A stretch of DNA of 64,000 nucleotides, taken from Emticicia oligotrophica DSM 17448 (GTDB taxonomy: Bacteria > Bacteroidota > Bacteroidia > Cytophagales > Spirosomataceae). Each line of letters begins with the position of its first letter. Position 1 is the stretch's first letter. A model generated the notes under the pieces. That model was given only the letters and a program-made list of their open reading frames with translations, did not search any database and was not told the origin of the DNA. Of this stretch, positions 22,222 to 37,661 are shown piece by piece. The position numbers and the translations under genes were made by a program. The DNA is taken from assembly GCF_000263195.1 (NCBI RefSeq), contig NC_018748.1, forward strand, positions 2,976,001-3,040,000. The letters are read 5' to 3'.

Positions 22222-22863
22222 ATGATGAAACCTTCGGCCGATACAAAATCTCGAATTCTTGAAAAATCAATCGAATTATTCAATCGTTTTGGTTTTGTGA
22301 GTATTCGTTTGCAGCACATTGCTGATGAAGTAGGCATCAGTGTCGGTAATTTAGCCTATCATTTTAAAAATAAAGATGCAATTTTTGAGGCTATCTATGA
22401 AGAAATCGAAGAAAACCAGAAGATTTTACTTGCAGATTTGAAGATTGTTCCTCTCTTTATCAATATTGATAAACATATTCGAGATACTTACGCAATTCAG
22501 CAAAAATTTAGCTTCTTCTATTCTGATACCTTTGAAATCCTACGAAACTTTCCACTAATCAAGAAAAAATACCGAGAATACACTCGTTGGTATATTCAGC
22601 AAATCGAAAACATGATTTCCTTCAATGTAGCACGTGGTACTTTTACGGTTGAATCGCACGAAAAACTACACCTCCAATTGGCTGAGCAATATTGGATGAC
22701 CATGGAATTTTGGTTGTATCAGCGTAGAATCAGAACTTTCGAAGAAATCAATATTGAAGATTATGTATTAGCACTTTGGGCTTTATTGCTACCTCATTTC
22801 ACCCACATAGGAAATCTTGAGTACAAACAAATGCACTACAATGAAAATTTTAATTGGTTATGA
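22222..22863 (+). CDS. TetR-family regulator 1 of the hydrogenase locus
   Basis: 213 residues. TetR N-terminal helix-turn-helix at about 8-55 (ILEKSIELFNRFGFVSIRLQ ... GISVGNLAYHFKNKDAIFEA). The C-terminal ligand or dimer domain is helical, with an LAEQYWMTMEFWL stretch that is matched by LAEAIWMTLVFWI in tetR2, showing paralogy along the whole length. The upstream gene is murF-alr and the next is small protein A, whose promoter has an 18-bp palindrome. I infer that it regulates small protein A and the hydrogenase genes; the ligand is unknown. Two starting codons ATGATG are present; the first is used here. Confidence 0.85.
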   Translation: MMKPSADTKSRILEKSIELFNRFGFVSIRLQHIADEVGISVGNLAYHFKNKDAIFEAIYEEIEENQKILLADLKIVPLFINIDKHIRDTYAIQQKFSFFYSDTFEILRNFPLIKKKYREYTRWYIQQIENMISFNVARGTFTVESHEKLHLQLAEQYWMTMEFWLYQRRIRTFEEINIEDYVLALWALLLPHFTHIGNLEYKQMHYNENFNWL

Positions 22864-22869
22864 TTTATA

Positions 22870-22887
22870 TTAGAAAATAATTTCTAA
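22870..22887. promoter_or_regulatory. Putative TetR operator O1 (small protein A)
   Basis: TTAGAAAATAATTTCTAA, arms TTAGAAA/TTTCTAA around ATAA. It is identical to the site at 24109-24126 before hupS. It overlaps the predicted -7 box at 22885-22892, a position suited to repression. Confidence 0.65.
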
Positions 22888-22892
22888 TTTTG
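22885..22892 (+). promoter_or_regulatory. Predicted -7 element for small protein A
   Basis: TAATTTTG fits TAnnTTTG. It overlaps the last bases of operator O1. Because it would place transcription start near 22899, it excludes the TTG at 22890 as the start codon and supports ATG 22920. Confidence 0.5.
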
Positions 22893-22919
22893 ATTAAAAA
22901 TCAATTAAATACGCCTTTA

Positions 22920-23282
22920 ATGACTTCATCGACCTGTAAAATAGATGAGCGTATGTATAATAGTTTGTTAGAACTATTGAATGATACCTATTTTATTGAT
23001 ACAAAGGGTAATATACAAGATTTTCAGTTTTACCACGATGACCATTGGCTTTCTGATAGTGCAGTAATTGATAATTTGATTTATAAGCGTGGAGAATGGA
23101 ATATTGAGTTACTCTTCGCCCTACACACAAATCCGTTGAAGTTTATCAAACGCCAAATCATGTCTTACTCATGCCCCAAAAAAGCAACGCTTTCGGCGAG
23201 TTTGATGCGAAGAATGGCTGCCAAAGACCAAAGGGGGACTTTGGAGGTAAAAGTTGAGAATTTTAATATTTGTACGAATTAG
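22920..23282 (+). CDS. Small protein A, hydrogenase-locus paralogue family
   Basis: 120 residues from the ATG at 22920. No known family is recognised. It is clearly related to small protein B (27796-28119): shared features in order are a W-L-x-D element, an LL/MLF strand followed by NPLK, a KKA, then KDxRGTL and the C-terminal N-x-N-I-C-x-N with the last residues NICTN. The N-terminal 25 residues are not shared. It is predicted soluble, without signal peptide. It lies between two paralogous TetR genes, directly behind an 18-bp palindrome. A role in hydrogenase assembly or in signalling to the regulators is inferred only from location. Confidence 0.7.
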   Translation: MTSSTCKIDERMYNSLLELLNDTYFIDTKGNIQDFQFYHDDHWLSDSAVIDNLIYKRGEWNIELLFALHTNPLKFIKRQIMSYSCPKKATLSASLMRRMAAKDQRGTLEVKVENFNICTN

Positions 23283-23339
23283 TAGATAGTTGATTCAAAT
23301 TTTAGTTATAATCTATTATTTGTAGAAAGGTAAGAAGAG

Positions 23340-23954
23340 ATGTATAAAACAAAAGAAAGAATAGTTAATGCTTCAATAAAGCTATTTAATGACCACGGAA
23401 TAGCGAGTGTGCGTTTGCAGCAAATTGCTGACGAAATAGGAATCAGTGTGGGAAATTTAGCGTATCATTTCAAAAATAAAGAAGCAATTATTCATTCTGT
23501 ATACGAAAAGCTCTTCGAAGATTTTCAACAAATTTTAGGCTCTTATCTTAAAACGCCCTCTCTTTTAGATTTTGATTCACAAATAAGTCATTACTTTGAT
23601 TTCTTCAAAAATTATCAGTTTTATATTAGTGATTTATTCGCTTCCGAACATCCTTTACCCGAAGTACGAGAACAATGGCAAGAGTTTATGAATAAAATGA
23701 TTTTTCAGATTCGTAAACGTCTTGATTTTCATGCTCGAAGGGGTGACCTCAGTCCGCAACCTGAAAATACCTACGATATTTTGGCCGAAGCTATTTGGAT
23801 GACACTCGTATTTTGGATACCCCAACAACAAATGCGAAATAAGCCAATTTCTGAAGCCCGATTTAAAGGAGCAGTTTGGAATAATATCCGTCCTTATCTC
23901 ACTGAGAAAGGAACCTCCGAATTTGCCAGTCAAATACTCCCAATTTTTATTTGA
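23340..23954 (+). CDS. TetR-family regulator 2 of the hydrogenase locus
   Basis: 204 residues with the same TetR helix-turn-helix as tetR1 (ASIKLFNDHGIASVRLQQIA, GISVGNLAYHFKNKEAII), differing at only a few positions in the recognition region, so both should read similar DNA sites. C-terminal domains are more diverged, consistent with different ligands or heterodimer formation. It starts 57 bases after small protein A and is followed by a 262-base region holding two operator-like palindromes and the hupS promoter. Confidence 0.85.
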   Translation: MYKTKERIVNASIKLFNDHGIASVRLQQIADEIGISVGNLAYHFKNKEAIIHSVYEKLFEDFQQILGSYLKTPSLLDFDSQISHYFDFFKNYQFYISDLFASEHPLPEVREQWQEFMNKMIFQIRKRLDFHARRGDLSPQPENTYDILAEAIWMTLVFWIPQQQMRNKPISEARFKGAVWNNIRPYLTEKGTSEFASQILPIFI

Positions 23955-24108
23955 AGTATGATGTAAATCATATTTTCTATTCCTAATTAGTCTCACCTTT
24001 GATAAAAGGTAATCATAGACGATTTTCTCCAATGTTTTTGTTTGAAGGGCTGTGGAAATCAAGATTGTTTACTGCTCAATTTCTTCGTTTAATTTAGAAT
24101 AATTATAA

Positions 24109-24126
24109 TTAGAAAATAATTTCTAA
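24109..24126. promoter_or_regulatory. Putative TetR operator O2 (hupS, distal)
   Basis: TTAGAAAATAATTTCTAA, base-for-base identical to operator O1 at 22870-22887. Its start is 24 bases before that of operator O3, a little over two helical turns, which would allow two dimers side by side. Confidence 0.65.
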
Positions 24127-24132
24127 AAAATA

Positions 24133-24150
24133 TTAGAAAAATTTTTCTAA
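24133..24150. promoter_or_regulatory. Putative TetR operator O3 (hupS, proximal)
   Basis: TTAGAAAAATTTTTCTAA is a perfect 18-bp palindrome. It covers the position expected for the -33 element of the hupS promoter (-7 box at 24166-24173), so binding here should block RNA polymerase. Confidence 0.65.
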
Positions 24151-24165
24151 TTAAATTTATTATTT

Positions 24166-24173
24166 TACATTTG
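24166..24173 (+). promoter_or_regulatory. Predicted -7 element of the hupSL promoter
   Basis: TACATTTG is a perfect TAnnTTTG match, 44 bases before the hupS start codon. There is no clean TTG at -33; that position is a T run inside operator O3. Confidence 0.6.
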
Positions 24174-24216
24174 AACATTAAATAATACAATTTCAACTCT
24201 TTTTTAAACCTGTCCT

Positions 24217-25200
24217 ATGGCAAATGTTCTATGGTTACAAGGTGGGGCATGTAGTGGAAACACCATGTCGTTCCTCAATGCCGAAGAGCCAACAGTCGTT
24301 GATTTAGTGACTGACTTTGGTATAAACATTCTTTGGCACCCTTCTGTTGGCTTGGAAATTGGGCACCAAGTCACACATCTTCTCGAAGATATAATCAATG
24401 GTAAAGTTCAGTGCGATATTTTTGTCTATGAAGGCAGTATTATCGAAGGACCAAATGGTACAGGTACAATGAACTACTTCTGCGACCGCCCAATGAAAGA
24501 TTGGGTAAAAGAACTCGCTGCTGTGGCAGGTTATGTAGTCGCAATCGGTGATTGTGCTACTTGGGGAGGTATCCCTGCGGTTGCCCCAAACCCGAGTGAA
24601 TCTACGGGTATGCAATTTTTAAAGAAAGAAAAAGGCGGTTTTTTGGGTGCTAACTATAAATCTAAAGGTGGTTTACCTGTAATTAATATACCAGGTTGTC
24701 CTGCTCACCCTGACTGGGTAACACAGATTTTAGTGGCTATTTCAACAGGCCGTATTGGTGATATAAAGATTGATGAATTCCATCGTCCGAGTACATTTTT
24801 TACTGATTTTGTACAAACCGGCTGTACGAATGTGGTAAACTTTGCCAACAAAGTAGATGGAGGATTCGGTAAAAGAGGTAATGGTTGTTTGTTTTATGAG
24901 GTGGGCTGCCGTGGACCGATGACCAGAGCGAGTTGTAACCGTATTTTGTGGAATCGCACATCGAGTAAAACACGTGCGAATCACCCTTGTTTGGGTTGTA
25001 CTGAACCTGGTTTTCCACACCATGATTTACAAAAAGGCAGTGTATTCAAAACCCTTAAATATCTTGGGTATTTTCCGCAAGATGTACCAGCTGGAAATTC
25101 TAAGCTTGGTTATTATTTAAGAGCTGGTTTTGAAAAGACAATGCACGCTACTGAAGTAGCTTTCGGTGTAACAAAGTCGCATAGCGAAAGCTCAATCTAA
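24217..25200 (+). CDS. hupS: [NiFe] hydrogenase small subunit, group 2a type
   Basis: 327 residues, no Tat signal, so a cytoplasmic enzyme. The N-terminus MANVLWLQGGACSGNTMSFL and following NAEEPTVVDL closely match the group 2a subunits of cyanobacteria (HupS) and mycobacteria (Huc). In the proximal-cluster motif the usual CxxC reads C12-S-G-N15, so the second cysteine is Asn, as in that group. Other cluster cysteines are seen in IGDCATWGG, NIPGCPAHP, and the C-terminal run GCLFYEVGCRGP ... SCNR ... CLGC. It passes electrons from the Ni-Fe site along iron-sulphur clusters. It is followed by hupL after 56 bases. Confidence 0.95.
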   Translation: MANVLWLQGGACSGNTMSFLNAEEPTVVDLVTDFGINILWHPSVGLEIGHQVTHLLEDIINGKVQCDIFVYEGSIIEGPNGTGTMNYFCDRPMKDWVKELAAVAGYVVAIGDCATWGGIPAVAPNPSESTGMQFLKKEKGGFLGANYKSKGGLPVINIPGCPAHPDWVTQILVAISTGRIGDIKIDEFHRPSTFFTDFVQTGCTNVVNFANKVDGGFGKRGNGCLFYEVGCRGPMTRASCNRILWNRTSSKTRANHPCLGCTEPGFPHHDLQKGSVFKTLKYLGYFPQDVPAGNSKLGYYLRAGFEKTMHATEVAFGVTKSHSESSI

Positions 25201-25256
25201 TTAGAAAACTAGGTTTGCTAATTACCCAATCATCATTTCAAAAATCAACCGTTAAA

Positions 25257-26849
25257 ATGGCTATCTCGAAAGAATTAAATATATCACCTGTAGGTCGTGT
25301 AGAAGGCGACCTCGACGTAAAAGTGTATATGGAAGACGGCGTGGTGACCCGTGCTCATACACAAGCTGCCATGTTTCGTGGTTTCGAACAAATCATGGCA
25401 GGTAAAGACCCTCAATCAGGCTTAATCGTAACCCCACGTATTTGTGGAATTTGTGGGGGCTCGCACCTCTATTGTGCCTCATCGGCCTTAGATACTGTGT
25501 GGGAAACCACACTTACGCCTAATGCACTTTTACTCCGTGCTTTAGGGCAAGCTACCGAAACAATTCAGAGTATTCCTCGTTGGTTCTATGCAATTTTTGC
25601 AACCGACATGGCTAATAAAAAATTTGCTAATAAACCACTTTATTCAGAAGTAGTGAAGCGTTGGGCCGCTTATGTGGGTACTTCTTTTCAGAAAGGCATT
25701 ACTGCCAGTGCATTGCCAGTGCAAGTATATGCTTTATTCGGTGGACAATGGCCTCATTCAAGCTATATGGTTCCGGGTGGCGTCATGTGTGCACCAACCT
25801 TGAAGGATATTACTCGTGCCCATGCTATTATGAATCAATTCCGTAAAGATTGGCTCGAAAGTATTTTCTTGGGTTGTTCGATAGAGCGTTATCGTCAAAT
25901 CAAAACTTGGGATGATTTATTGGCTTGGGTAGAAGAAAATGAAAGTCAGAAAAACTCAGATTTAGGTTTATTTATAAGAGCAGGTTTGGAGTTTGGCTTA
26001 CATAAATTTGGTCAAGGTGTAGGTAAATTTATTGCTTATGGCACTTATATTCATAAAGACCTATGGAATAAACCTAAAATTGAAACTCGTCAAAATGCTG
26101 TAATAAGTTCAGGTGGATTTTTCGATGGAAAAGAATTTCACGACTTTAATCACCTGGATGTAATGGAACACGTAAGCCATGCTTGGTATAAAGATGTGGA
26201 TGCTGCTCACCCTTGGAATGAACCTTTGCCAACACCAATGCCATCTCAAAATTTGGCCAATTCAGATTTCAATGGCAAGTATAGTTGGGCCAAAGCACCT
26301 CGTTATGCTGGTCATGCTGCCGAAGCAGGTCCACTTTCACGTGTGTTGATGAATGCAAATCCTAAAAATGCAAATCATCAGATTCAAGACCCATTATTCT
26401 TAGACATCATTCAAAAATTAGGTCCAAATGTATTCACTCGTACATTAGCACGCTTGCATGAAGCAGCACGCTTGTATGATTACATTGATGAGTGGTTACG
26501 CCAAATTGACCTTAACGGTGAATTTTACATTAAACCAACTGAAAAAGATGGTAAAGGATTTGGTGCTACTGAAGCGGCACGTGGAGCTTTGGCTCACTGG
26601 ATTGAGATTGAAAATGGAGTTATCAAAAACTATCAAGTAATGGCTCCTACAACTTGGAATGTTGGCCCGAACGATGATAGAGGTAACCCTGGTCCAATCG
26701 AAGCAGCTTTGGAAGGAACTGAAATTGAAGATCCACATGACCCTGTAGAAGTTGGCATGGTGGCTCGTTCGTTTGACTCATGTTTGGTTTGTACTGTACA
26801 CGCACATGATGCCAAAAATGGTAAAGAAATGGCACGTTTCAAACTATAA
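25257..26849 (+). CDS. hupL: [NiFe] hydrogenase large subunit, group 2a type
   Basis: 530 residues from ATG 25257; the TTG at 25215 upstream in frame is not needed since MAISKELNISPVGRVEGD is the normal start. The active-site ligands are all present: L1 motif RICGICGGSH with Cys63 and Cys66, and L2 motif DSCLVCTVH with Cys509 and Cys512. The chain continues 15 residues beyond His515 (AHDAKNGKEMARFKL), the peptide removed by the maturation protease after nickel insertion. Group 2a enzymes oxidise H2, often at low concentration and in the presence of O2; the direction in this host is inferred. A strong terminator follows 23 bases later. Confidence 0.96.
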   Translation: MAISKELNISPVGRVEGDLDVKVYMEDGVVTRAHTQAAMFRGFEQIMAGKDPQSGLIVTPRICGICGGSHLYCASSALDTVWETTLTPNALLLRALGQATETIQSIPRWFYAIFATDMANKKFANKPLYSEVVKRWAAYVGTSFQKGITASALPVQVYALFGGQWPHSSYMVPGGVMCAPTLKDITRAHAIMNQFRKDWLESIFLGCSIERYRQIKTWDDLLAWVEENESQKNSDLGLFIRAGLEFGLHKFGQGVGKFIAYGTYIHKDLWNKPKIETRQNAVISSGGFFDGKEFHDFNHLDVMEHVSHAWYKDVDAAHPWNEPLPTPMPSQNLANSDFNGKYSWAKAPRYAGHAAEAGPLSRVLMNANPKNANHQIQDPLFLDIIQKLGPNVFTRTLARLHEAARLYDYIDEWLRQIDLNGEFYIKPTEKDGKGFGATEAARGALAHWIEIENGVIKNYQVMAPTTWNVGPNDDRGNPGPIEAALEGTEIEDPHDPVEVGMVARSFDSCLVCTVHAHDAKNGKEMARFKL

Positions 26850-26872
26850 ACTGAATAAACCTAAAGTACTAC

Positions 26873-26906
26873 GCCCGTAAATTTAACTTTATTTACGGGC
26901 TTTTTT
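26873..26906 (+). terminator. Rho-independent terminator after hupL
   Basis: GCCCGTAAAT and ATTTACGGGC form perfect 10-bp arms with an 8-base loop, followed by six T residues. It splits the structural genes from the maturation genes, probably letting hupSL be made in excess. Confidence 0.9.
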
Positions 26907-26950
26907 ACAAAAGACTAGATTTTAAAAGTGTCCTAAAATAAGCATATCCA

Positions 26951-27493
26951 ATGGTTTTAATTGACGAAAAAAAAACTATTAGTATAGAAGAAAAGGCTTC
27001 AATAGTAGGCAAAACTGCCATAATGGGTTTTGGAAATCCCTGCCGAAGTGATGATGGTATTGCCATTTATGTTATCGACGAATTGAAGCAACTGGTGAGT
27101 GAGGATAATGATTCTTTTACTCTTTTCGACATGGGTACTTCGGCTTTTGAGGTGCTGTTTCAATTGCAAGGCCATCATCGTATTATCATTGTTGATGCTG
27201 TAATCAATACAGGCGAACCAGCTGGAACAATTTATAAATTACCTGCGAGTGAAATCAACGCACAAATTCAAGATGACCCAATGGTATTCTTGCATAGCCT
27301 TAAATGGGATCAAGCACTTTCTTATGCAAAGAAAATTCTACGAGAAGCCTACCCTGAAGATATTGAAGTTTATTTGATTGCAGTAAATAATACAAAGCTT
27401 GATATTCAGTTGAGTGAAGAGGTGAAACGGGCTGGTGATAAAGTTATAGAGCTTTTAAAAGATGATATTTTAGGAATAAGTAGAAAAAAATGA
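26951..27493 (+). CDS. hupW: Hydrogenase maturation endopeptidase (HyaD/HupW family)
   Basis: 180 residues. The N-terminal MGFGNPCRSDDGIAIYVIDE carries the GNxxxxDDG motif whose Asp (D34/D35 region) contacts nickel; DMGTSAFEV and IVDAV are the next conserved strands, and HSLKWDQAL holds the expected histidine ligand. It cuts the C-terminal peptide of HupL after the active-site histidine. It overlaps the next small gene by 4 bases (ATGA). The name hupW is used by analogy with cyanobacteria. Confidence 0.88.
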   Translation: MVLIDEKKTISIEEKASIVGKTAIMGFGNPCRSDDGIAIYVIDELKQLVSEDNDSFTLFDMGTSAFEVLFQLQGHHRIIIVDAVINTGEPAGTIYKLPASEINAQIQDDPMVFLHSLKWDQALSYAKKILREAYPEDIEVYLIAVNNTKLDIQLSEEVKRAGDKVIELLKDDILGISRKK

Positions 27494-27795
27494 TTCAACT
27501 GAAAAAAGGCCATATATGGTTTGCGAAAGAACAGGTTGATTTACTTTTTGGAGATGAAGAAAAAGTAAATTTAGTGTATTATCCCGATCGACAAACCTTA
27601 TTGATTGCAGCTCGTTCAAAGTTGTTTTTTGAAAAAATGCACAAAACTACTTGGGCTGTACTAAAACTTCGAAACTTGAATGGCGACAAGACGATATCTA
27701 TTCAAGACCTAATCTTAGACAATGACCTTGATGAGACTGACAGAACCTTAACCTATGATTTAAAAAATACTGGAATTTTAAGCATCGAATTATAG
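27490..27795 (+). CDS. Small hypothetical protein in hydrogenase maturation block (101 aa)
   Basis: 101 residues, not recognised. It begins MIQLKKGHIWFAKEQVDLLF and has alternating hydrophobic and charged residues with no cysteine cluster, signal peptide or membrane segment; the C-terminal part is acidic (LDNDLDETDRTLTYDL). It overlaps the protease gene by 4 bases and abuts small protein B with no gap, so it must be co-translated with hydrogenase maturation genes. In Nostoc-type extended hyp operons small ORFs occupy a comparable position, but orthology cannot be tested here. Confidence 0.7.
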   Translation: MIQLKKGHIWFAKEQVDLLFGDEEKVNLVYYPDRQTLLIAARSKLFFEKMHKTTWAVLKLRNLNGDKTISIQDLILDNDLDETDRTLTYDLKNTGILSIEL

Positions 27796-28119
27796 ATGTA
27801 TATCGCAGATAGCATAAATTTCGAATACTCTGAAAACCAAAAAGGAGCAAGAAAAGACTTTGATATTTTCGAAGAAAACCTTTGGCTACATGATACAGAG
27901 ATTCGCTATATAATAGATTTGAAAAATGGGAGATGGCACCTGACGATGCTTTTTATTTCGATTTATAACCCACTCAAATTACGCTGTCATTATCTCGATC
28001 ACTACGATTCTCAGAAAAAAGCAGAACTATACGCACAAATATTTCAAAGAGGCATTAGAAAAGATGCCAGAGGAACCCTAAAACTTAACGAAAATGCTTA
28101 CAATATTTGCTACAACTAA
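27796..28119 (+). CDS. Small protein B, hydrogenase-locus paralogue family
   Basis: 107 residues, starting directly after the stop of the 101-aa gene. It is a divergent paralogue of small protein A: W-L-H-D, MLF...NPLK, KKAE, KDARGTL and the terminal AYNICYN correspond in order and spacing. No database family is recognised. The single C-terminal cysteine in NICxN is conserved in both and is the best candidate functional residue. Its last 26 bases overlap the TPR gene in another frame. A role in hydrogenase assembly is inferred from tight coupling to hupW and hyp genes. Confidence 0.7.
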   Translation: MYIADSINFEYSENQKGARKDFDIFEENLWLHDTEIRYIIDLKNGRWHLTMLFISIYNPLKLRCHYLDHYDSQKKAELYAQIFQRGIRKDARGTLKLNENAYNICYN

Positions 28120-29608
28120 CCTGTTTACTCATCTTCAAGAAGTAATCAATGCTGAGTATCGACTAAATGAAGTGGTAGTGCTTGATTTATTGGAAAACCT
28201 AAATAAAGTCACAACCAATTACCTAATAGTTGAGCAATCGGAGATAAAAATCCCGATTCATTGGGAAAATGATGTACCGCCTTTTCTGTTATCAAATCCA
28301 ATCGTTTTCGATGAACAAAATCTGTTAGCAGTTATTTATTTTAAGCTTAATAATTTCGAGAAAGCCTATCATTTCGCCGAAAACAATGCAATTTTATTAA
28401 GTGATATTGATATTTGTAATTGTTTGCAACACGGCATTTCTATTGGACTTAACACCAATATCACTCCAATTGAATCCTATTCAAAATTTGATATATATCG
28501 CCATTGGCACAATCTGGCAGTGAAGGCTCATTATGGTGAAATTCTTAGTTTTGTAAGTGCTTATCAGATGAAGGATTTTTACCAAAAAGCCCTAGAGTTG
28601 GCTCCAAACGATGAGTATCGAGCATTTACAGCTAAACAATATGCCTCGTTTTTATTAGATACTGAGGAACTCGAAAATGCAGAAATTTTGCTTGAAGATT
28701 GTATCAGTAAAGCCATTTCTGATGATGCTAAATTCGAGTTAATGAATGTTCAGTATGGTGTTTGGCTTAAACAATTAGGTATTCCTTATGATGAAAATTT
28801 GTTGCAAAAAACAAAAAATACCCTTTGGGAAGTGCTCAAATATTACGAAAAGCAGCAAAACCATTTACAAGTAGCAATCATATTGATAGATGCGGCATAC
28901 GTAGCTAATATTTCGGAAAGTTTTGCCGAAGCCTTGGGCTATATCAACCGTGCTATTGATATACTCCGAAACGAAGATATTCCCGAATTGTTGGCTAATG
29001 CCCAATACCGAAAAGGGGTATTGTTTTACACATGGGCTCAGGTCGGAAATATTCAATTTTATAAACCTGCCATGGAAGCTTATCAAGAAGCTCTCAAAAT
29101 ATTTACGTATGATAATGCACCCGATATTTTTGCTGAAATTCAGCACCATTTGGGGGTAATTTACTCCGAAATCCCTGATGAAGTGAAGAAAAAAAGTCTT
29201 TGGGCTGCTGTTTCGGTTAGTTCATTTCATCAAGCTCTCAATCATTTTACTAGAGAGACTCACCCTTTTGAGTATGCCATGATTTGCAATAGTTTTGCTA
29301 ATGCACTTACAAAATATCCTCCTTCTGTTAAAGGTGATAATTTTGCAAAAGCATTAAACTATTACCGAAAATCACTCGAAATTCGTTCGGCAGAAGAATA
29401 CCCTTACGAAAGAGCCTTAACGATTTTAAATTTCTTGGAAGCATGTTGGTTTGTCAATCACGAAGACGAACTTCAAGAGCAATTGCTATTCGATGAAATG
29501 ACTGCCAAAGCTTATGAAATCTCTACTTTAACCAACGATACAAAATTGTTGTCAGAAGCTCAGCGTCATTTAGAAAAAATCCAAGAGCTAAGCAAACTAT
29601 TAGCTTAA
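28094..29608 (+). CDS. TPR-repeat protein of the hydrogenase locus
   Basis: 504 residues, soluble. Helical repeats run from about residue 140 to the end, with TPR-like A/B helices such as KAYHFAENNAILL, EFLQKALELAPNDEYRAFTAK-type stretches, AEALGYINRAIDIL, PAMEAYQEALKIF and KALNYYRKSLEIR. The N-terminal 130 residues are not repetitive. TPR domains hold protein partners; group 2a loci of cyanobacteria and actinobacteria also carry TPR proteins, so a scaffold in small-subunit assembly is a reasonable inference. The start ATG overlaps small protein B by 26 bases. Confidence 0.75.
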   Translation: MLTIFATTNLFTHLQEVINAEYRLNEVVVLDLLENLNKVTTNYLIVEQSEIKIPIHWENDVPPFLLSNPIVFDEQNLLAVIYFKLNNFEKAYHFAENNAILLSDIDICNCLQHGISIGLNTNITPIESYSKFDIYRHWHNLAVKAHYGEILSFVSAYQMKDFYQKALELAPNDEYRAFTAKQYASFLLDTEELENAEILLEDCISKAISDDAKFELMNVQYGVWLKQLGIPYDENLLQKTKNTLWEVLKYYEKQQNHLQVAIILIDAAYVANISESFAEALGYINRAIDILRNEDIPELLANAQYRKGVLFYTWAQVGNIQFYKPAMEAYQEALKIFTYDNAPDIFAEIQHHLGVIYSEIPDEVKKKSLWAAVSVSSFHQALNHFTRETHPFEYAMICNSFANALTKYPPSVKGDNFAKALNYYRKSLEIRSAEEYPYERALTILNFLEACWFVNHEDELQEQLLFDEMTAKAYEISTLTNDTKLLSEAQRHLEKIQELSKLLA

Positions 29609-29652
29609 GATTTTGGTGTGTTTTCCTTGAAAATTAAGGCTTAAGTCAAGAT

Positions 29653-29670
29653 TTAGAAAACATTTTCTAA
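29653..29670. promoter_or_regulatory. Putative TetR operator O4 (hypA)
   Basis: TTAGAAAACATTTTCTAA has 8-bp inverted arms around a 2-base centre and the same outer half-sites and spacing as O1-O3. It lies 83 bases before hypA and 38 bases before the predicted -7 box, so it would act further upstream than the other sites. Confidence 0.55.
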
Positions 29671-29707: not shown

Positions 29708-29715
29708 TATTTTTG
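29708..29715 (+). promoter_or_regulatory. Predicted -7 element for the hypA operon
   Basis: TATTTTTG fits TAnnTTTG and lies 21 bases before hypA in the only sizeable gap (127 bases) between the TPR gene and hypA. No TTG is seen at -33. Confidence 0.4.
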
Positions 29716-29735: not shown

Positions 29736-30077
29736 ATGCACGAAATCTCATTAGTTCGAAACATTTTTAAGACCCTCGAAGAAGAATTCCCGAATGATAT
29801 TCCAAAGATTCGTGGTATTTTTCTAAAGGCAGGCTTGCTTTCAAATGTTCAGCCAATTCTGATGCAAAATGCGTTTCAAGCAGTGCTCGAAGATCAGCCA
29901 AAGTACCAAAATACCAGTTTGCATGTAGAAGTGCTACCGATTTTGATTTATTGTGATTCATGCAATAAAACATGCGAAGTAGAACAGTATCGTTTTGTGT
30001 GTACTTGTGGTAAGCCGAGCCGAAATGTAGTGCAAGGCGAAGAACTCCTGATCAGTAGAGTAGAATTTGCTGAATAA
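29736..30077 (+). CDS. hypA: Hydrogenase nickel-insertion protein HypA
   Basis: 113 residues, normal length. It starts MHEISLV, giving the N-terminal nickel-binding M-H-E triad. The zinc loop reads CDSC ... CTCG (about residues 73-92); the second pair is CxC in place of the usual CxxC. HypA takes nickel from HypB and delivers it to the large subunit precursor. It heads the hypAB-F block, behind a predicted promoter and an operator-like palindrome. Confidence 0.93.
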   Translation: MHEISLVRNIFKTLEEEFPNDIPKIRGIFLKAGLLSNVQPILMQNAFQAVLEDQPKYQNTSLHVEVLPILIYCDSCNKTCEVEQYRFVCTCGKPSRNVVQGEELLISRVEFAE

Positions 30078-30115
30078 TTTATCATTCAATCTTTAAAATT
30101 TCCTGCTCGGAAACT

Positions 30116-30814
30116 ATGAAACCAAAGTCAAATCAAGCTTCTGTTGGCTCAGTTCAATGCGATAATACTACGCTTAATTTACTCAAAGTCAATGATTTTG
30201 TGGCAAAAGCCATTCGTGAACGGTTGCCAAATATATTGGTTATTAATATTTGCTCCTCACCAGGAAGTGGAAAAACCACCCTCATGCAAGAAACGGGGAA
30301 ACGTCTTCGTGACAAATTAAATTTAGCTGTTTTGGTAGGTGACCCAGAGACAGAACGTGATGCCATAAGGATGCGTGATGTGGGTATCAATGCCTTACAG
30401 ATTGTTACTGGTGGGATGTGCCACATTGAAGCACAAATGATTTACCAAGCCCTCGACCATATTGACCTCACAGGTGTTGATTTATTATTCATCGAAAACG
30501 TAGGGAATTTGGTTTGTCCTGCTGCTTTTGACCTTGGAGAAGATTATCGAGTAACACTTCTAGCCGCAACCGAAGGTGACGATAAACCCAAAAAATACCC
30601 ACGAATGTTTCTCACAAGTGAGCTAATGGTTGTTTCAAAGGCCGATTTATTACCTTATGTGCCATTTTCGGTGGAAGCTGTAACGAAAGATGCAAGAGAT
30701 GTGAATCCTGATATTGAGGTAATTACGATTTCGAGTCTAAAAGGTGATGGAATGGATGAATGGTGTGAGTGGCTCATGAAAAAGGTAGAAGAAAAGAAAG
30801 GTGTCTTAGCATGA
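30116..30814 (+). CDS. hypB: Hydrogenase nickel-insertion GTPase HypB
   Basis: 232 residues. P-loop SSPGSGKTTLMQ at about 45-56; the G-domain metal site residues Cys-His appear in GGMCHIEAQM; DLLFIENVGNLVCPA is the switch II region and SKADL the base-recognition motif. It hydrolyses GTP during nickel insertion. The N-terminus has neither a histidine-rich nickel store nor a CxxCGC-type high-affinity site; only Cys15 is seen. It lies between hypA and hypF (4-base gap to hypF). Confidence 0.94.
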   Translation: MKPKSNQASVGSVQCDNTTLNLLKVNDFVAKAIRERLPNILVINICSSPGSGKTTLMQETGKRLRDKLNLAVLVGDPETERDAIRMRDVGINALQIVTGGMCHIEAQMIYQALDHIDLTGVDLLFIENVGNLVCPAAFDLGEDYRVTLLAATEGDDKPKKYPRMFLTSELMVVSKADLLPYVPFSVEAVTKDARDVNPDIEVITISSLKGDGMDEWCEWLMKKVEEKKGVLA

Positions 30815-30818
30815 AATA

Positions 30819-33083
30819 ATGGTATTTGAAATTCGCATAAAAGGGCAGGTACAAGGGGTTGGTTTTAGACCATTTATTTATCGTTTAGCAATCGAAAATA
30901 AAGTAAATGGTTGGGTAAATAATACCAATGAGGGCGTTTTAGTGGAAGTATCATTGCCTGTTAATCAGATTGAAAGTTTCTGTGAAAAGATTAAACAAGA
31001 AGCTCCAAAATTAGCGAAAATAACAAATATTTCTTTTGAAGAAATCGAGCGAAAACCAGTATTTGAAAAAGGTTTTCATATCATCAAAAGTGAAAGAAAT
31101 ACCAAAACTAATGTTTTACTAAGTCCTGATTTTGCTATTTGTCCAACTTGTAGAAAGGAAATTCATACCCAAAACGACCGTCGATTTCTATATGCTTTTA
31201 CAACTTGTACTTATTGCGGACCAAGGTATTCAATCACTCAGAAACTCCCATACGACCGCGAATTGACAAGCATGGAAGCTTTTTGTATGTGTGCAGATTG
31301 TCAGAAAGAGTACGATAATGTTGAGAATCGAAGATACTTTTCGCAGACAAATTCTTGCAAGAAATGTGGCGTTCAACTTTCATTTTTTGATAAGCACAGA
31401 GCATTGCTTACGAACGAATCTGATGAAGTATTAAAACTAAGTGTTGAAGCACTGAAGGAAGGTAAAATACTGGCAATTAAAGGTATTGGTGGCTATTTAT
31501 TAATGTGTGATGCGAATAATGAACAAACAATTGCTATCCTTCGCCAAAGAAAACACCGACCCACCAAGCCATTTGCGGTGATGTATCCAAGCCTAAAATT
31601 GCTTGAAGAAGAAATTAGCTTAAAAGAGCAGGAGAAAGAGGCATTAGCCAATGAAACGGCCTCAATTGTGCTTTTAAATGCTCCAGATTCAACATTGGCA
31701 ACTACTGGTTTATTGGGTGTTATGCTGCCATATACACCTTTGTTTGAACTCATTGCTCAAACGTTTGCCAAACCCATAATTGCCACCAGTGGAAATCTGA
31801 GTCATTCACCAATTGTTTATCAAGATGATAATGCTTTGGCAGAATTGTTGGAAATAGCCGATTGTATTATTCAAAATAATCGAGCAATCGTAGTGCCTCA
31901 AGATGATAGCGTACTGAGGTTTAGCCCAATTTATAATCAAAAAATTGTTCTGAGGCGTTCGAGGGGTTTAGCTCCAACATTTATACAGGCATCATTAGCT
32001 TTAAAAAATAATGTGTTGGCGATGGGAGCAATGTTGAAAAGTACATTTGCCATTACCCATGAAAATAATGTTTACATAAGCCAATATTTGGGTGATTTAA
32101 CTGATTTTGATACACAAGAAAATTATAGACATACTCTCAAGCATTTATCGGAAGTAATCAGTTTTGAGCCATCTACCATCTTGATTGATAAACACAAAAT
32201 GTATCCATCAAGTGAAATGGGAAAAGCAATGGCTCAAAAACAAAAACTCAATTTAGTTGAAATTCAACATCATCAAGCTCATTTTGCCGCTGTTTTGGCT
32301 GAAAATGATTTGTTTGGAAGCAAAGAACCTATTTTAGGAATTATCTGGGATGGAACAGGCTGGGGCGAAGATGGACAAATTTGGGGTGGAGAGTTCTTTG
32401 AATATCAAGATGATTTAGGTCTAGAGCGAGTTGCTCATTTTGATTATTTCTCGAATTTGATGGGAGATAAAATGGCACGGGAACCACGTTTATCGGCCTT
32501 GGCAATTACGCATGAAGTGGAAGATGTCCAAGAATTTATCCGAAGAAAGTTTAGTGAAACAGAATGGAATCTTTACCAGAAGTTTCTTTCTCAAAATTCA
32601 AATATCAATACTTCATCTGTTGGTCGAATATTAGATGGTTTGGCTTCTTTGTTAGGTATCCTCGATAAATCTACTTATGAAGGTGAAGCTGCCATGTATT
32701 TAGAGGCTAAAGCAAGGGAATTTTTTGATAAAAACTCAGCTGAAATAACTAGCTATAATTTGGTGTGTAATGCTGAAAATAAGATTAATTTAAACCCAAT
32801 GATTAAGCAAATTTTTGAAGATATTCAGAAAAATGTAAGTATAGAAAAAATAGCAGCTAAAATTCATTTTTCGTTGATAAAGCTTATTCAAGGAATAGCT
32901 AATCGTCTAAAAATCAAACGATTGGCGTTTTCGGGAGGAGTTTGGCAAAATGCAGTTTTGGTAGATTTAGCCTTTCAGCACCTTGATGATTTTGAACTCT
33001 TTTTTCATAAGCAGTTATCTCCCAATGATGAGTGCATTTCATTTGGACAACTAGCTTTTTATAGTTTTTTGAAAACACCTTAA
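30819..33083 (+). CDS. hypF: Carbamoyltransferase HypF
   Basis: 754 residues, complete. Domains in order: acylphosphatase (1-90, KGQVQGVGFRPFIYRLA), two zinc fingers (about 108-190, CPTC ... CTYC ... CADC ... CKKC), a YrdC/Sua5-like domain (about 200-385, IKGIGGYLLMCDA) and a Kae1-like domain (about 400-754, with HHQAHFAAV and a second metal/nucleotide region IWDGTGWGEDG). It converts carbamoyl phosphate and ATP to a carbamoyl adenylate and passes the group to HypE for cyanide ligand synthesis. Confidence 0.96.
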   Translation: MVFEIRIKGQVQGVGFRPFIYRLAIENKVNGWVNNTNEGVLVEVSLPVNQIESFCEKIKQEAPKLAKITNISFEEIERKPVFEKGFHIIKSERNTKTNVLLSPDFAICPTCRKEIHTQNDRRFLYAFTTCTYCGPRYSITQKLPYDRELTSMEAFCMCADCQKEYDNVENRRYFSQTNSCKKCGVQLSFFDKHRALLTNESDEVLKLSVEALKEGKILAIKGIGGYLLMCDANNEQTIAILRQRKHRPTKPFAVMYPSLKLLEEEISLKEQEKEALANETASIVLLNAPDSTLATTGLLGVMLPYTPLFELIAQTFAKPIIATSGNLSHSPIVYQDDNALAELLEIADCIIQNNRAIVVPQDDSVLRFSPIYNQKIVLRRSRGLAPTFIQASLALKNNVLAMGAMLKSTFAITHENNVYISQYLGDLTDFDTQENYRHTLKHLSEVISFEPSTILIDKHKMYPSSEMGKAMAQKQKLNLVEIQHHQAHFAAVLAENDLFGSKEPILGIIWDGTGWGEDGQIWGGEFFEYQDDLGLERVAHFDYFSNLMGDKMAREPRLSALAITHEVEDVQEFIRRKFSETEWNLYQKFLSQNSNINTSSVGRILDGLASLLGILDKSTYEGEAAMYLEAKAREFFDKNSAEITSYNLVCNAENKINLNPMIKQIFEDIQKNVSIEKIAAKIHFSLIKLIQGIANRLKIKRLAFSGGVWQNAVLVDLAFQHLDDFELFFHKQLSPNDECISFGQLAFYSFLKTP

Positions 33084-33102
33084 AAAGTTTCAAAAAGTAC
33101 AA

Positions 33103-33201
33103 GGTTAAACGCATTTAATTTGTCCCAATATGGATACTTATTTTATAGTGTCTAATGGAACGTCTTTTAAACAAATTAAGAGGTATTTAATGCGTTTAAC
33201 C
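33103..33201. repeat. Imperfect inverted repeat between hypF and hypC
   Basis: GGTTAAACGCATT (33103-33115) and AATGCGTTTAACC (33189-33201) are perfect 13-bp arms; further in, TTAATTTGT (33115-33123) pairs with ACAAATTAA (33171-33179). The roughly 100-base element fills much of the 253-base gap and has no ORF. It could be a processing or attenuation structure within the hyp transcript or a small palindromic insertion. Confidence 0.5.
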
Positions 33202-33268
33202 CAAAAAAACACCCAAACTGAATTTATACGGTTTAGGTAAATCTAAATTATTTCCTTGTTCTTATAAC

Positions 33269-33286
33269 CATTGAATTTATTCAATG
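33269..33286. promoter_or_regulatory. Short palindrome upstream of hypC
   Basis: CATTGAA-TTTA-TTCAATG, 51 bases before hypC, is a perfect 7-bp inverted repeat distinct from the TetR-like operators. Function unknown. Confidence 0.3.
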
Positions 33287-33336
33287 AATCAAAAATATTA
33301 GGCTTTTAAATTTCTAAATTTAAACATAGAACTCAC

Positions 33337-33636
33337 ATGTGTTTGGCAATTCCGGGTAAAATAAAATCAATCGAATATCAATACGATGGTTTGGTCAGAA
33401 TGGCAAAAGTAGTTTTCGGAGGTATTACCAAAGAGGCTTCACTCGAAATGGTTCCTGATGCCCAAGTAGGCGATTACGTGCTTGTACATGTAGGTGTGGC
33501 CATAAGTAAAGTGGATGAAGAAGAAGCACAAAAAACCTTTAAATATTTAGAGGAAATAGGTGAGATTGATGAGCTTGTAGAACATGCACAAATTGATAAA
33601 AACTCTATTGATGAAGGTATTAGTAAGTTTTTATAA
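33337..33636 (+). CDS. hypC: Hydrogenase assembly chaperone HypC
   Basis: 99 residues. It begins MCLAIPGKI, with the essential Cys2 that binds the iron precursor and HypD. A short acidic helical tail follows the beta-barrel (DEGISKFL at the end). HypC shuttles the Fe(CN)2CO unit from HypD to the large subunit precursor. It begins a hypCDE block separated from hypF by an inverted repeat. Confidence 0.95.
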   Translation: MCLAIPGKIKSIEYQYDGLVRMAKVVFGGITKEASLEMVPDAQVGDYVLVHVGVAISKVDEEEAQKTFKYLEEIGEIDELVEHAQIDKNSIDEGISKFL

Positions 33637-33676
33637 TGCATTTTAAATCATTTTGAACTTATTCCCAATTGGGCTT

Positions 33677-34780
33677 ATGAAATTTTTATCCGAATTCCGA
33701 GACCCCGAGGTAGTAGAGCAATACATTGCCGAATTACACAAGATTACCACTCGCCCATGGACAATCATGGAAATTTGTGGTGGCCAAACACATAGTTTGG
33801 TGAAAAATGGTATTTTGAATATTCTACCAAAGCAAATCACGATGGTTCATGGACCAGGATGTCCAGTTTGTGTGACTCCCTTAACATTGATTGATAAAGC
33901 CTTGTACTTAGCAGAAGAGAAAAATGTAATTCTGTGTTCGTATGGCGATATGATTCGTGTACCTGGTTCAAAGAAAAGTTTGCTTGAAGCAAAGGCTAGC
34001 GGAGCAGATATTCGTATTATGTATTCTCCATTAGAAGCCGTTAAGATTGCTCAAGAAAATCCTTCAAGAGAAGTCGTATTCTTTGCAGTCGGTTTTGAAA
34101 CTACAGCACCTGCCAATGCACTTTCTGTACTTCATGCACAACGATTAGGATTAAAAAACTATTCAATTTTAGCTTCACATGTATTAGTGCCACCAGCAAT
34201 GGAAGCAGTAATAAACGATGAAGAAGCAAAAATTGAAGCTTTTTTAGCAGCAGGTCATGTTTGTACGATTATGGGTATGAATGAATACGAGCCGATTGTA
34301 GAAAAATATAAAATTCCGATGGTTGTAACGGGTTTTGAACCAGTAGATTTACTTCAAGGAATCTTAATGACTGTCAGACAACTTGAAAACGGCGAAGCAA
34401 AACTTGAAAATCAATACAGTAGAGTGGTAAAAGCTGAAGGGAATCTAGAAGCTCAGAAAGTAATAGCAAAAGTATTTAAAACTGATGACAGAGAGTGGCG
34501 AGGAATCGGAACTATTCCGAAAAGTGGTTGGGAAGTAAGCGATGAAATGGCTGAATTTGATGCCAATAAGAAGTTTTCGGTGAATATTCAGAAAGTACCC
34601 GAATGTGCAGATTGTATTGCTGGACAAATTTTGAAAGGTATTAAAAAGCCTTTTGAGTGTAGCCAATTTGGTAAAGCTTGTACGCCGCTCAATCCATTAG
34701 GAGCTCCGATGGTTTCTTCAGAAGGTGCTTGTGCAGCATATTATCATTATTCTGAAGCTACTGAAGAAGTGTTAGCTTAA
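33677..34780 (+). CDS. hypD: Hydrogenase Fe-S scaffold protein HypD
   Basis: 367 residues from ATG 33677 (MKFLSEFRDPE, the usual HypD start); a TTG 24 bases upstream is in frame but not needed. Conserved motifs: IMEICGGQTHS, HGPGCPVCVTP, AVGFETTAP and GFEPVDLLQGI, and a C-terminal cluster-binding set ECADC ... FECSQFGKACTP. It holds a [4Fe-4S] cluster and is the platform for adding CN and CO to iron. Confidence 0.95.
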   Translation: MKFLSEFRDPEVVEQYIAELHKITTRPWTIMEICGGQTHSLVKNGILNILPKQITMVHGPGCPVCVTPLTLIDKALYLAEEKNVILCSYGDMIRVPGSKKSLLEAKASGADIRIMYSPLEAVKIAQENPSREVVFFAVGFETTAPANALSVLHAQRLGLKNYSILASHVLVPPAMEAVINDEEAKIEAFLAAGHVCTIMGMNEYEPIVEKYKIPMVVTGFEPVDLLQGILMTVRQLENGEAKLENQYSRVVKAEGNLEAQKVIAKVFKTDDREWRGIGTIPKSGWEVSDEMAEFDANKKFSVNIQKVPECADCIAGQILKGIKKPFECSQFGKACTPLNPLGAPMVSSEGACAAYYHYSEATEEVLA

Positions 34781-34809
34781 AAGATTTTAAAATTTCAGTT
34801 CAAAATTCA

Positions 34810-35862
34810 ATGCATACTTCAATACTTAGCCTTTCTTGCCCCATGCCGCAACTCGATTTTGAGGTAATTACCTTAGGTCATGGAAGTGGAGGCGTATTAA
34901 CTAATAAATTACTCGAATCAGGGGTTTTTGATTTACTGAAAAATCCGATTTTAGATGACCATCACGATGGGGCAATTTTTCAATTAGAAGGTAAATTGGC
35001 TTTTTCGACCGATAGTTATGTTATTTCCCCTGTTTTCTTTCCAGGTGGGAATATTGGTGAATTGGCTATCAATGGTACTGTGAATGATTTGGCCATGTGT
35101 GGAGCTATCCCCAAATATCTCTCGCTAAGTTTTATCCTTGAAGAAGGGCTTACCATGCAGGAGTTTTGGGAGATATTACTGTCTATCAAATTTGCAGCCG
35201 AAAAAGCGGGTGTATACATTGTAACAGGCGATACTAAAGTTGTAGAAAGAGGAAAGGGCGATAAAATCTTTATCAATACTGCGGGTGTTGGACAAATTCA
35301 TCCTAAAGCTGAAATTTCATCCCGAAAAGTACAAGCGGGCGATAAAATCATTGTCAGTGGAAACATTGCTACACACGGAATCGCCATCATGTCGGTACGT
35401 GAAGGGTTAGAATTCGAAACTAGCATCGAAAGTGATACAGCCAATCTTAATCATACTGTTAAAGAGCTTTTAGATACATTTGGTTCGGATATTCATTTAT
35501 TCCGTGACCCAACACGGGGCGGTGTTGCCACGGTTCTGAATGAAATAGCACGAGATACTAAGTTGGGTATAAATATTATACAGAAAAATATTCCAGTCAT
35601 AGAAGAAGTTTATGGAGCTTGCGAATTGCTTGGCCTTGACCCACTATATGTAGCGAATGAAGGTGTTTTTATGGCCGTAGTATCAGCCGATGTGGCAAAT
35701 GATTTTCTAGCAAAGCTAAAAACTTTAGAGAATGGATTGGATGCGGCTATTATCGGAGAAGTGGTTGAAGAACACCCTAAACAAGTAGTATTGCAGAGTA
35801 AAATTGGTGGAAAACGAGTTATAAATATGCTTGTTGGTGAACAATTACCTCGAATTTGCTAA
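34810..35862 (+). CDS. hypE: Hydrogenase maturation factor HypE
   Basis: 350 residues, PurM-like ATP-dependent dehydratase. VITLGHGSGG is the N-terminal glycine-rich ATP motif and the protein ends in PRIC, the conserved terminal cysteine that carries the thiocarboxamide and then the thiocyanate group. The ATG at 34810 is preferred because the ILSLSCPMP leader before the glycine motif occurs in other HypE proteins; ATG 34843 is the alternative. It is spaced 29 bases from hypD and from the NHL gene. Confidence 0.95.
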   Translation: MHTSILSLSCPMPQLDFEVITLGHGSGGVLTNKLLESGVFDLLKNPILDDHHDGAIFQLEGKLAFSTDSYVISPVFFPGGNIGELAINGTVNDLAMCGAIPKYLSLSFILEEGLTMQEFWEILLSIKFAAEKAGVYIVTGDTKVVERGKGDKIFINTAGVGQIHPKAEISSRKVQAGDKIIVSGNIATHGIAIMSVREGLEFETSIESDTANLNHTVKELLDTFGSDIHLFRDPTRGGVATVLNEIARDTKLGINIIQKNIPVIEEVYGACELLGLDPLYVANEGVFMAVVSADVANDFLAKLKTLENGLDAAIIGEVVEEHPKQVVLQSKIGGKRVINMLVGEQLPRIC

Positions 35863-35891: not shown

Positions 35892-37034
35892 ATGAATATT
35901 AGTCTTTCCAAAATACCGCCCTCACTTGGTAGTGGTCTATCGGCAACAGCAATTGATAAACCAGCATTGGTGGGTTCTTATCAGATATTCAAAGGAAATG
36001 AGCATAACCCTTTATTAGCACCAAGAGGCGTTTGGAAATACCAAAATTATTTGATGGTTTCTGATACTGGGCAGAATCGAGTATTCATTTGGAATCAAAT
36101 TCCTTCAGATACTTATGCAAATCCAGATATTGTGTTGGGGCAAATTGAGCAATCCGACACTGGTAGAAATGCAGGAAGTACCGTCAGTGCCAGTACGCTT
36201 CAATATCCTTCAGGCATTTGGACAGATGGCACTAAACTCATCATTGCCGATGCTTGGAATCATCGGGTTTTAATATGGCATTCTTTTCCAACGAAAAATG
36301 GTCAAGCCGCTGATGTGGTCATTGGACAACCTAATTTCGAGCAAAACGAACCCAATATCAGAGGTATTGGTTCAACTCCCTCTGCACAAAGCCTAAATTG
36401 GCCCTATGGTGTTTTCTCTGATGGCACGCATCTATGGATTTGTGATACGGGAAATCGAAGAATTTTATTTTATAATTCTATTCCAACCGAAAATTTTGCC
36501 GCAGCCAGTAAAGTAATTGGTAAACCAAGTTTTACGGAGCGTGACTATGAAAATTATGAACCCATTTGGCCGTATTCCTTACGAGTTAGTACTAATGGTG
36601 TTTTGGCAATAACCGATACGCAATTTTATCGAACACTTATTTGGCATCATTGGAAAGATGCTTTTACAAAAACGGCTGATGTAATTATTGGTCAGCCCGA
36701 CTTTGATTCTAATGGAATGAATCAGTTTAGTCTCGCTCCTAAACAAGATTCCATGAGTTGGACTTATGATTCGTTTTTTTATAAAAATGGCATTTTTGTA
36801 GCCGATACTGGCAATAGTAGGCTTTTGTGGTTTGAAAATATTCCGAGTAGCAACGCTCCTGAGGCCGATAATTTATTAGGGCATTATGATTTCAATACTG
36901 GAAGTGAAAATACTCAAACACGTTTTGGAACCGATACACAACTCTATTGGCCTTTTTCGATTTGCGTTGATGGAGAAAAATTAGTTTTGGCCGATACAGG
37001 AAATCATCGACTCATTATTTATGATATCTTATAA
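35892..37034 (+). CDS. NHL-repeat protein of the hydrogenase locus
   Basis: 380 residues with about six NHL-type blades. Repeat units are visible as YLMVSDTGQNRVFIWN, LIIADAWNHRVLIWHSFP, LWICDTGNRRILFYNSIP, GIFVADTGNSRLLWFENIP and LVLADTGNHRLIIYD, each with the DTGNxR signature, interleaved with VIGQPxF segments. No signal peptide, so cytoplasmic. NHL proteins also occur in hup/hyp operons of heterocystous cyanobacteria and in actinobacterial group 2a loci. A structural role in hydrogenase assembly is inferred. Confidence 0.85.
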   Translation: MNISLSKIPPSLGSGLSATAIDKPALVGSYQIFKGNEHNPLLAPRGVWKYQNYLMVSDTGQNRVFIWNQIPSDTYANPDIVLGQIEQSDTGRNAGSTVSASTLQYPSGIWTDGTKLIIADAWNHRVLIWHSFPTKNGQAADVVIGQPNFEQNEPNIRGIGSTPSAQSLNWPYGVFSDGTHLWICDTGNRRILFYNSIPTENFAAASKVIGKPSFTERDYENYEPIWPYSLRVSTNGVLAITDTQFYRTLIWHHWKDAFTKTADVIIGQPDFDSNGMNQFSLAPKQDSMSWTYDSFFYKNGIFVADTGNSRLLWFENIPSSNAPEADNLLGHYDFNTGSENTQTRFGTDTQLYWPFSICVDGEKLVLADTGNHRLIIYDIL

Positions 37035-37040
37035 TGTATT

Positions 37041-37661
37041 ATGGAAAATGTTATTGCATTAGTTGGGGCGGCAATCATTGGTTTTTCTCACTCGTTTGAG
37101 GCCGACCATTTGGTGGCAGTGAGCAGCATTGTTACACGTAGAGATAATACTTTGGCGGCAATTAAAGATGGTATTTTTTGGGGTTTGGGGCATACGTCAA
37201 CTATTCTGATTGTAGCGGCAATTTATCTGATTGGTAAATTTATCTTAAATGAAAACGATTTTAAGTATTTTGAAGCAGGTGTAGGTATAATGTTAATTGG
37301 TTTAGGGTTTGTTCGCTTTTATCGTATTTTCCAAGAACGTTCGCACGGGCATATACATGCTAATGAGCCTACATTTGGTTTAGCTTATGGCGTAGGTTTA
37401 GTTCATGGTTTAGCAGGAAGCGGGGGTTTATTAATTTCGGTACTCACACAAATCAAAGACCATGTATTAGCATTTGCTTATATTACCTTGTTTGGCCTTG
37501 GCTCGGTTGTAGGTATGATGCTTGCTGCTGGAATTTTTAGCCTTCCATTTTCATCAAAAATCCTAAATAATCGTTGGCTTTCATTTGGTTTAGGCTTGGT
37601 TTCTGCCTCGCTTTGTGTTGGTTTAGGAATAAGCATTGTTTATAAAAACATTTTTCAATAA
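37041..37661 (+). CDS. Nickel permease (NicO/UreH-like, HX4DH motif)
   Basis: 206 residues, about six membrane helices. The first helix carries HSFEADH, the HX4DH nickel/cobalt signature, at residues 19-25, and a cytoplasmic histidine-containing loop (RSHGHIHANEP) lies near residue 108. Further helices have LVHGLAGSGGLL and FGLGSVVGMMLAAG. It most likely brings in Ni2+ for the Ni-Fe site. It starts 6 bases after the NHL gene and belongs to the hypCDE transcript. Confidence 0.85.
   Translation: MENVIALVGAAIIGFSHSFEADHLVAVSSIVTRRDNTLAAIKDGIFWGLGHTSTILIVAAIYLIGKFILNENDFKYFEAGVGIMLIGLGFVRFYRIFQERSHGHIHANEPTFGLAYGVGLVHGLAGSGGLLISVLTQIKDHVLAFAYITLFGLGSVVGMMLAAGIFSLPFSSKILNNRWLSFGLGLVSASLCVGLGISIVYKNIFQ

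Follow-up and report, generated by a model that had tools for sequence, protein, structure and literature searches.

Palindromic candidate operators of a probable TetR-type switch for the group 2a uptake hydrogenase in Emticicia oligotrophica and other Bacteroidota

Through group 2a [NiFe] hydrogenases, aerobic bacteria can draw on trace amounts of H2. The solved chains closest to the large subunit, HupL, encoded in the stretch of DNA analyzed here (64,000 nucleotides of Emticicia oligotrophica DSM 17448, contig NC_018748.1, positions 2,976,001 to 3,040,000; below, the window) are 7uus/7utd, which we take to be Huc, the group 2a [NiFe] hydrogenase of Mycobacterium smegmatis; their E value is ~1e-191, that of the next best match 4e-60, and HupL carries two CxxC pairs for the Ni-Fe site, RICGIC and DSCLVC, with CxxC at 77 and 523, respectively, in the translated frame. 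Alike as the enzymes are, their control seems to differ: passages on huc in M. smegmatis describe GylR as acting indirectly and state that the direct regulators are unidentified (PMC13098282). A group 2a clade in Bacteroidota has also been noted; to its authors' knowledge in 2020, H2 oxidation was unreported for various lineages bearing the enzyme, and the passages on that clade mention no transcription factor (PMC7784904). Here, we describe four 18-bp palindromes, TTAGAAA-N4-TTTCTAA, around the hydrogenase genes of the window. As the best explanation of the whole, they very probably are operators of a dedicated TetR switch for this Huc-type uptake hydrogenase, and that a dedicated TetR regulon exists is something of which we are more confident still.

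In gene order, the locus reads tetR1, candidate operator 1 (O1), smA (a small-protein gene), tetR2, O2 and O3, hupS, hupL, a protease gene, genes for two small proteins and a TPR protein, O4, hypA, hypB, hypF, hypC, hypD, hypE, and genes for an NHL protein and a NiCoT-like permease (coordinates in the table below). The first-pass annotation had placed the four palindromes correctly: all are exact, and neither the window nor the rest of the 5.22-Mb genome holds a fifth exact copy, while the reversed pattern, used as a control, has no exact match in the genome. It was also right that O1 and O2 are identical, that O3 is a perfect palindrome, and that the sites precede smA, hupS (twice) and hypA, lying on the -7 box of smA and in the -33 region of hupS. 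At up to one mismatch, the motif has 15 places in the genome (11 of them with one mismatch) versus 22 for the reversed control, and loose matches therefore carry no weight unless supported by position.

To what extent the motif follows the hydrogenase can be read from a family sample of 150 genomes. HupL was found in 22 of these, to which we added one genome (G025) whose hydrogenase contig stops before hupL. The exact motif is present in all 23 hydrogenase genomes versus 11 of the other 127, with totals of 68 and 12 exact sites, respectively, and 2 matches to the reversed pattern in the same 23 genomes. When the surroundings of all 68 sites were inspected, 34 were found upstream of hupS, 15 of hypA, 2 of hypC, 6 of smA and 9 of one unlinked TonB receptor gene; one more lies behind hypF in G103, ahead of a second kind of TonB receptor gene, and one in an unrelated place (L055). 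In other words, 67 of the 68 precede smA, hupS, hypA, hypC or TonB-receptor genes, and L055 is the only site without a link to hydrogenase or metal-uptake genes, so that a scatter over many unrelated loci is not what we see. Two loci (L051 and L053) have one site before hypA and another before hypC. Among the 12 sites in genomes without the hydrogenase, the two of G102 (L064 and L065) have no hup or hyp gene nearby. Nor do relatives keep the TetR genes and lose the motif at the hydrogenase, since an exact site stands upstream of hupS in all 22 family genomes with HupL. Neither of the two refuting outcomes named in the first-pass annotation was thus encountered; as a refinement, the unlinked TonB receptor genes are predicted members of the regulon as well.

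A phylum-wide set was built from the best 80 of 144 relatives retrieved with a TetR2 profile, these 80 being Bacteroidota by title; it shares members with the family sample, and all 80 loci have TetR2 by construction. A hupS gene is nearby in 78 of them. In this set, 73 hupS starts are followed by hupL and have no less than 250 bp of upstream sequence (a split gene in L228 being counted twice). Among them, we found an exact site in 60, one mismatch in 11, two in 1 and more than three in 1; that is, 72 of 73 have a site with at most two mismatches, compared with 9 of 1,460 for shuffled DNA. Independently of TetR2, HupL was searched for in two draws of 395 genomes, and seven hydrogenase genomes outside the family were examined. 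Five of them encode a TetR protein next to the hydrogenase, and the site is present there in every case (four exact; one mismatch in G865). In G331 and G430, the hydrogenase operon comes without TetR1, smA and TetR2, no site with up to two mismatches was found in 19.5 and 18 kb, respectively, and the exact motif is absent from both whole genomes; G331 has no TetR2 relative at an E value of 1e-10, and G430 has one distant relative elsewhere in its genome.

This co-occurrence of sites and TetR genes supports the proposed tie between the hydrogenase regulon and TetR proteins. The picture of a TetR pair encoded between the sites was only partly accurate, however: tetR2 does lie between them, but tetR1 stops 6 bp before O1, and across the family, TetR2 and smA occur in 22 of the 22 HupL genomes and TetR1 in 13. 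TetR2 is thus the constant partner and TetR1 optional, and TetR2 would therefore suffice in this family. What does join the two is the recognition helix. Both match TetR_N above cut-off (5.4e-10 for TetR1, 2e-11 for TetR2), both also have PF13972, which no other protein of the genome has, and among its seven TetR_N proteins, only these two have RLQ.IADE.GISVGNLAYHF in common. The core of the helix is unchanged across 18 TetR2 proteins, with minor variants phylum-wide (e.g., ISPGNL), and two TetR proteins from genomes without the hydrogenase have a differing helix. A tree of 144 sequences and two outgroups separates 63 TetR1 from 81 TetR2 proteins without error, the support of the dividing branch being weak (0.49). 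The structure model of TetR2 (pLDDT, 90.2) shows a TetR fold, with 3nnr as the best PDB match (TM score, 0.78).

The unlinked TonB receptor, which has barrel and plug domains, occurs in 88 of the 150 family genomes, at 90 places. Up to 400 bp upstream was considered at 87 of these, three cut matches (G013, G023 and G105) being omitted, and a site with zero to two mismatches was found 69 to 105 bp before the aligned receptor start at 11 of 21 places in hydrogenase genomes versus 0 of 66 elsewhere. Among close orthologs (at least 74% identity to that of L054), the fractions are 10 of 11 (the miss being G110) versus 0 of 4. We rejected the presence of the receptor as a marker of the hydrogenase, given the 88 genomes that carry it; the site before it does track the enzyme. 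In the window's own genome, the receptor gene is at C5:678162-680408 and a one-mismatch site at C5:680508-680525, just behind a HupE/UreJ-like gene; HupE/UreJ-like, DUF3500 and LytTR response-regulator genes occupy the adjoining L157:4037-7684. A HupE_UreJ_2 gene is likewise the receptor's neighbor in L054 and L056, other genes take that place in L052, L061, L066 and L060, and L053 has a NicO-like match below its cut-off. The second receptor kind, in G103, stands in a row with a NiCoT-like permease and ExbB-like and CobN-like proteins. Nickel would be the likely cargo of these candidate regulon receptors. The receptor site has two mismatches in G128 (L071) and is gone in G110 (L073), which suggests decay.

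How binding at these sites might act can be gauged from their position relative to the Bacteroidetes promoter, described in one source as TTTG at -33 and TAnnTTTG at -7 (PMC2483708). Spacing was measured from the first base of the site to the TAnnTTTG box. In the window, O1 overlaps such a box (TAATTTTG) before smA, O3 and O2 begin 33 and 57 bp before TACATTTG of hupS, and O4 begins 55 bp before TATTTTTG, at 29708. In the family, a TAnnTTTG box accompanies 27 of the 34 hupS sites, each time at 32 to 33 or 57 to 58 bp; it is found at 55 to 56 bp for 11 of 15 hypA sites, at 56 bp for both hypC sites, at 56 or 51 bp for 4 of 9 receptor sites, and at 15 bp for 4 of 6 smA sites. Phylum-wide, of 82 hupS occurrences, 46 fall at 32 to 34 bp, 27 at 56 to 58 bp and 6 at 78 to 79 bp, and 8 of 9 smA boxes are at 15 bp; loose -7 boxes at hypB are at 54 to 55 bp in 8 of 26 cases but at 44 bp in 5. 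Because of the fixed, distant spacing and the single upstream sites of the hyp genes, the arrangement is best read as activation. For the enzyme genes, the geometry suggests activation; for loci with an smA site, it also suggests autorepression.

On this basis, we propose that TetR2, and its same-helix paralog TetR1 where present, would bind TTAGAAA-N4-TTTCTAA, and that, from constant positions upstream of the promoters of hup, hyp and some TonB-receptor genes, the operators would control enzyme, maturation and probably nickel uptake. Binding at the hup, hyp and receptor sites would activate, whereas at loci with an operator over the -7 box of smA-tetR2, binding there would shut down the regulator's own operon; the signal would be a ligand of the TetR pocket. 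The argument for activation is one of geometry, and we consider the chances of activation within the regulon to be even. More tentative is the full picture of a dual regulator across several Bacteroidota orders, which would activate group 2a, maturation and TonB nickel promoters from ~33 and 55 to 58 bp, repress its own smA-tetR2 operon where the site exists, and combine two signals through two paralogs on one operator; its odds are lowered by the absence of the smA site from most loci.

Several observations weigh against the proposal. The control without TetR genes comprises two genomes only. At L259 and L260, a single TetR gene is seen beside the hydrogenase, and since its product scored nearer TetR1 in both, the paralog that is retained may vary; no smA was seen at L259. 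In the phylum set, a site with up to two mismatches lies upstream of smA in only 16 of 79 cases, and in 60 there are more than three mismatches, for which reason autorepression through an smA site would not be general. Sites at hyp genes are patchy (up to two mismatches before 11 of 60 hypA and 23 of 47 hypB genes), 7 of the 34 family hupS sites lack a consensus -7 box, and the receptor site is missing at 10 of 21 places in hydrogenase genomes, G110 included. Furthermore, many genomes that lack this hydrogenase carry the receptor, whose neighbor genes vary.

A strong rival to activation, if somewhat short of an even chance, is plain repression, with TetR2 and TetR1 acting as ligand-released repressors at every one of the same operators; it would change the mode of action and leave the regulon as it is. 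Most TetR proteins are repressors, and a repressor could block both promoters from where the sites lie, the -33 region for the proximal one of hupS and the -7 box for that of smA. However, where a consensus -7 box follows the single hypA, hypC and receptor sites, it mostly does so at 51 to 56 bp, a long way for simple occlusion, and the hupS spacing is fixed throughout the phylum. Moreover, TTG occupies the -33 place in 0 of 47 hup promoters (L228 counted twice) versus 5 of 9 smA promoters, although the former figure is partly forced, the operator filling that place, and the window's own smA is not among the five; at hyp promoters, a -33 box was seen in 1 of 7, a small test.

It is improbable that the palindrome belongs to another DNA-binding protein. 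One could point to smA, which accompanies the TetR genes in most cases. However, motif and TetR genes come and go together, the TetR helix is conserved along with the motif, and neither TetR1 nor smA was found at every site-bearing locus. Even less probable are RNA hairpins or terminators: among the 62 of 67 sites examined, longer-repeat arms scoring at least 6 do occur at 5 of 14 hypA, 1 of 2 hypC and 4 of 9 receptor sites, but at 0 of 6 smA and 6 of 30 hupS sites, the arms vary between genomes while the 14 core bases are constant, and hupS sites lie upstream of the -7 box wherever a box was found. Chance palindromes in AT-rich DNA, for which one could cite the 30 window matches at up to three mismatches (shuffle mean, 17.9), are refuted by the exact counts, with four sites in the genome, all at the locus, and 68 versus 2 reversed in the 23 genomes.

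In several genomes, the operator sits amid a longer inverted repeat with genome-variable arms of 10 to 18 bp (L032:11434, L044:4245, L047:4242, L050:4182, L053:3230 and 14906, L056:4526, L057:4322, L058:4396 and L061:4014). These may be places where the operator has merged with a terminator hairpin that belongs to the gene ahead.

Features of the hydrogenase locus, in window coordinates
Feature	Position	Strand	Remarks
TetR1	22222..22863	+	213 aa, TetR_N + PF13972; optional paralog; in 13/22 HupL-bearing family genomes
Operator 1	22870..22887	.	overlaps -7 box of smA-tetR2 promoter
Putative -7 box TAATTTTG of smA	22885..22892	+	TAnnTTTG type
smA, small protein without known family	22920..23282	+	in 22/22 HupL-bearing family genomes
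TetR2, probable (predicted) binder of all operators	23340..23954	+	204 aa, TetR_N + PF13972; in 22/22 HupL-bearing family genomes
Operator 2, distal hupS site	24109..24126	.	exact motif
Operator 3, proximal hupS site, over -33 region	24133..24150	.	exact motif
Putative -7 box TACATTTG of hupS	24166..24173	+	
hupS, hydrogenase small subunit	24217..25200	+	
hupL, hydrogenase large subunit	25215..26849	+	closest solved chains 7uus/7utd
Hydrogenase maturation protease	26951..27493	+	
Two small proteins and TPR protein	27490..29608	+	27490-27795; 27796-28119 (smA relative); TPR 28094-29608
Operator 4, upstream of hypA	29653..29670	.	exact motif
hypA, hypB, hypF, hypC, hypD, hypE	29736..35862	+	
NHL-repeat protein, then NiCoT-like permease	35892..37661	+	35892-37034; 37041-37661

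The smA reading frame opens at a TTG at 22890, and we took the ATG at 22920 as its start by inference. Its product matches no family in Pfam or NCBIfam and no PDB entry better than an E value of 0.9, and its structure model is poor (pLDDT, 50.5). An smA search retrieves, in several relatives, the small protein of the hup operon that corresponds to 27796-28119 in the window (~53 to 76 bits), and the two appear related. The NiCoT-like permease that closes the hyp gene row carries HSFEADHL and weakly matches HoxN/NixA; a relative is encoded at L053:8374-9000, within the TonB/CobN gene row of G103. In Saprospiraceae-type loci (L172, L174, L178, L179, L213, L214, L217, L225, L234 and others; nine were aligned), a second hupS-like gene directly follows tetR2, ahead of the operator and hupS-hupL. 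The count of such "extra" hupS genes, 27, includes hupS genes parted from hupL by contig ends.

With candidates for a direct regulator, its exact operator and its regulon in much of Bacteroidota, the timing of H2 use becomes directly testable, and the regulon suggests a nickel-uptake function for two kinds of TonB receptor. The first-pass annotation had supposed control of a group 2a hydrogenase by a TetR pair to be undescribed, and among the papers listed from open-licence PubMed Central we found no report of a TetR protein controlling such an enzyme; in the passages retrieved from PMC6883350 and PMC10017518, the "tetr" matches are words like tetrazolium and tetramer.

As a kind, a TetR protein with a dyad operator is well known. 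The PF13972 regulators nearest in fold, 3nnr (Maqu_3571) and 3rh2 (Sama_0099), share the domain makeup and fold of TetR2, and a dyad operator beside the regulator gene, here a candidate one, is a further likeness; neither has a hydrogenase-related name, whereas the predicted targets of the window's system are hydrogenase and maturation genes and TonB receptors. Some TetR proteins activate, FasR-like ones among them, and FasR is among the fold matches of TetR2; activation would fit the upstream sites described here, although FasR-like activators have other targets and it is the geometry that points to activation in the window. What would be new, then, is the target, a distribution that spans several orders, the pairing of two paralogs on a single operator, and the activator-like geometry.

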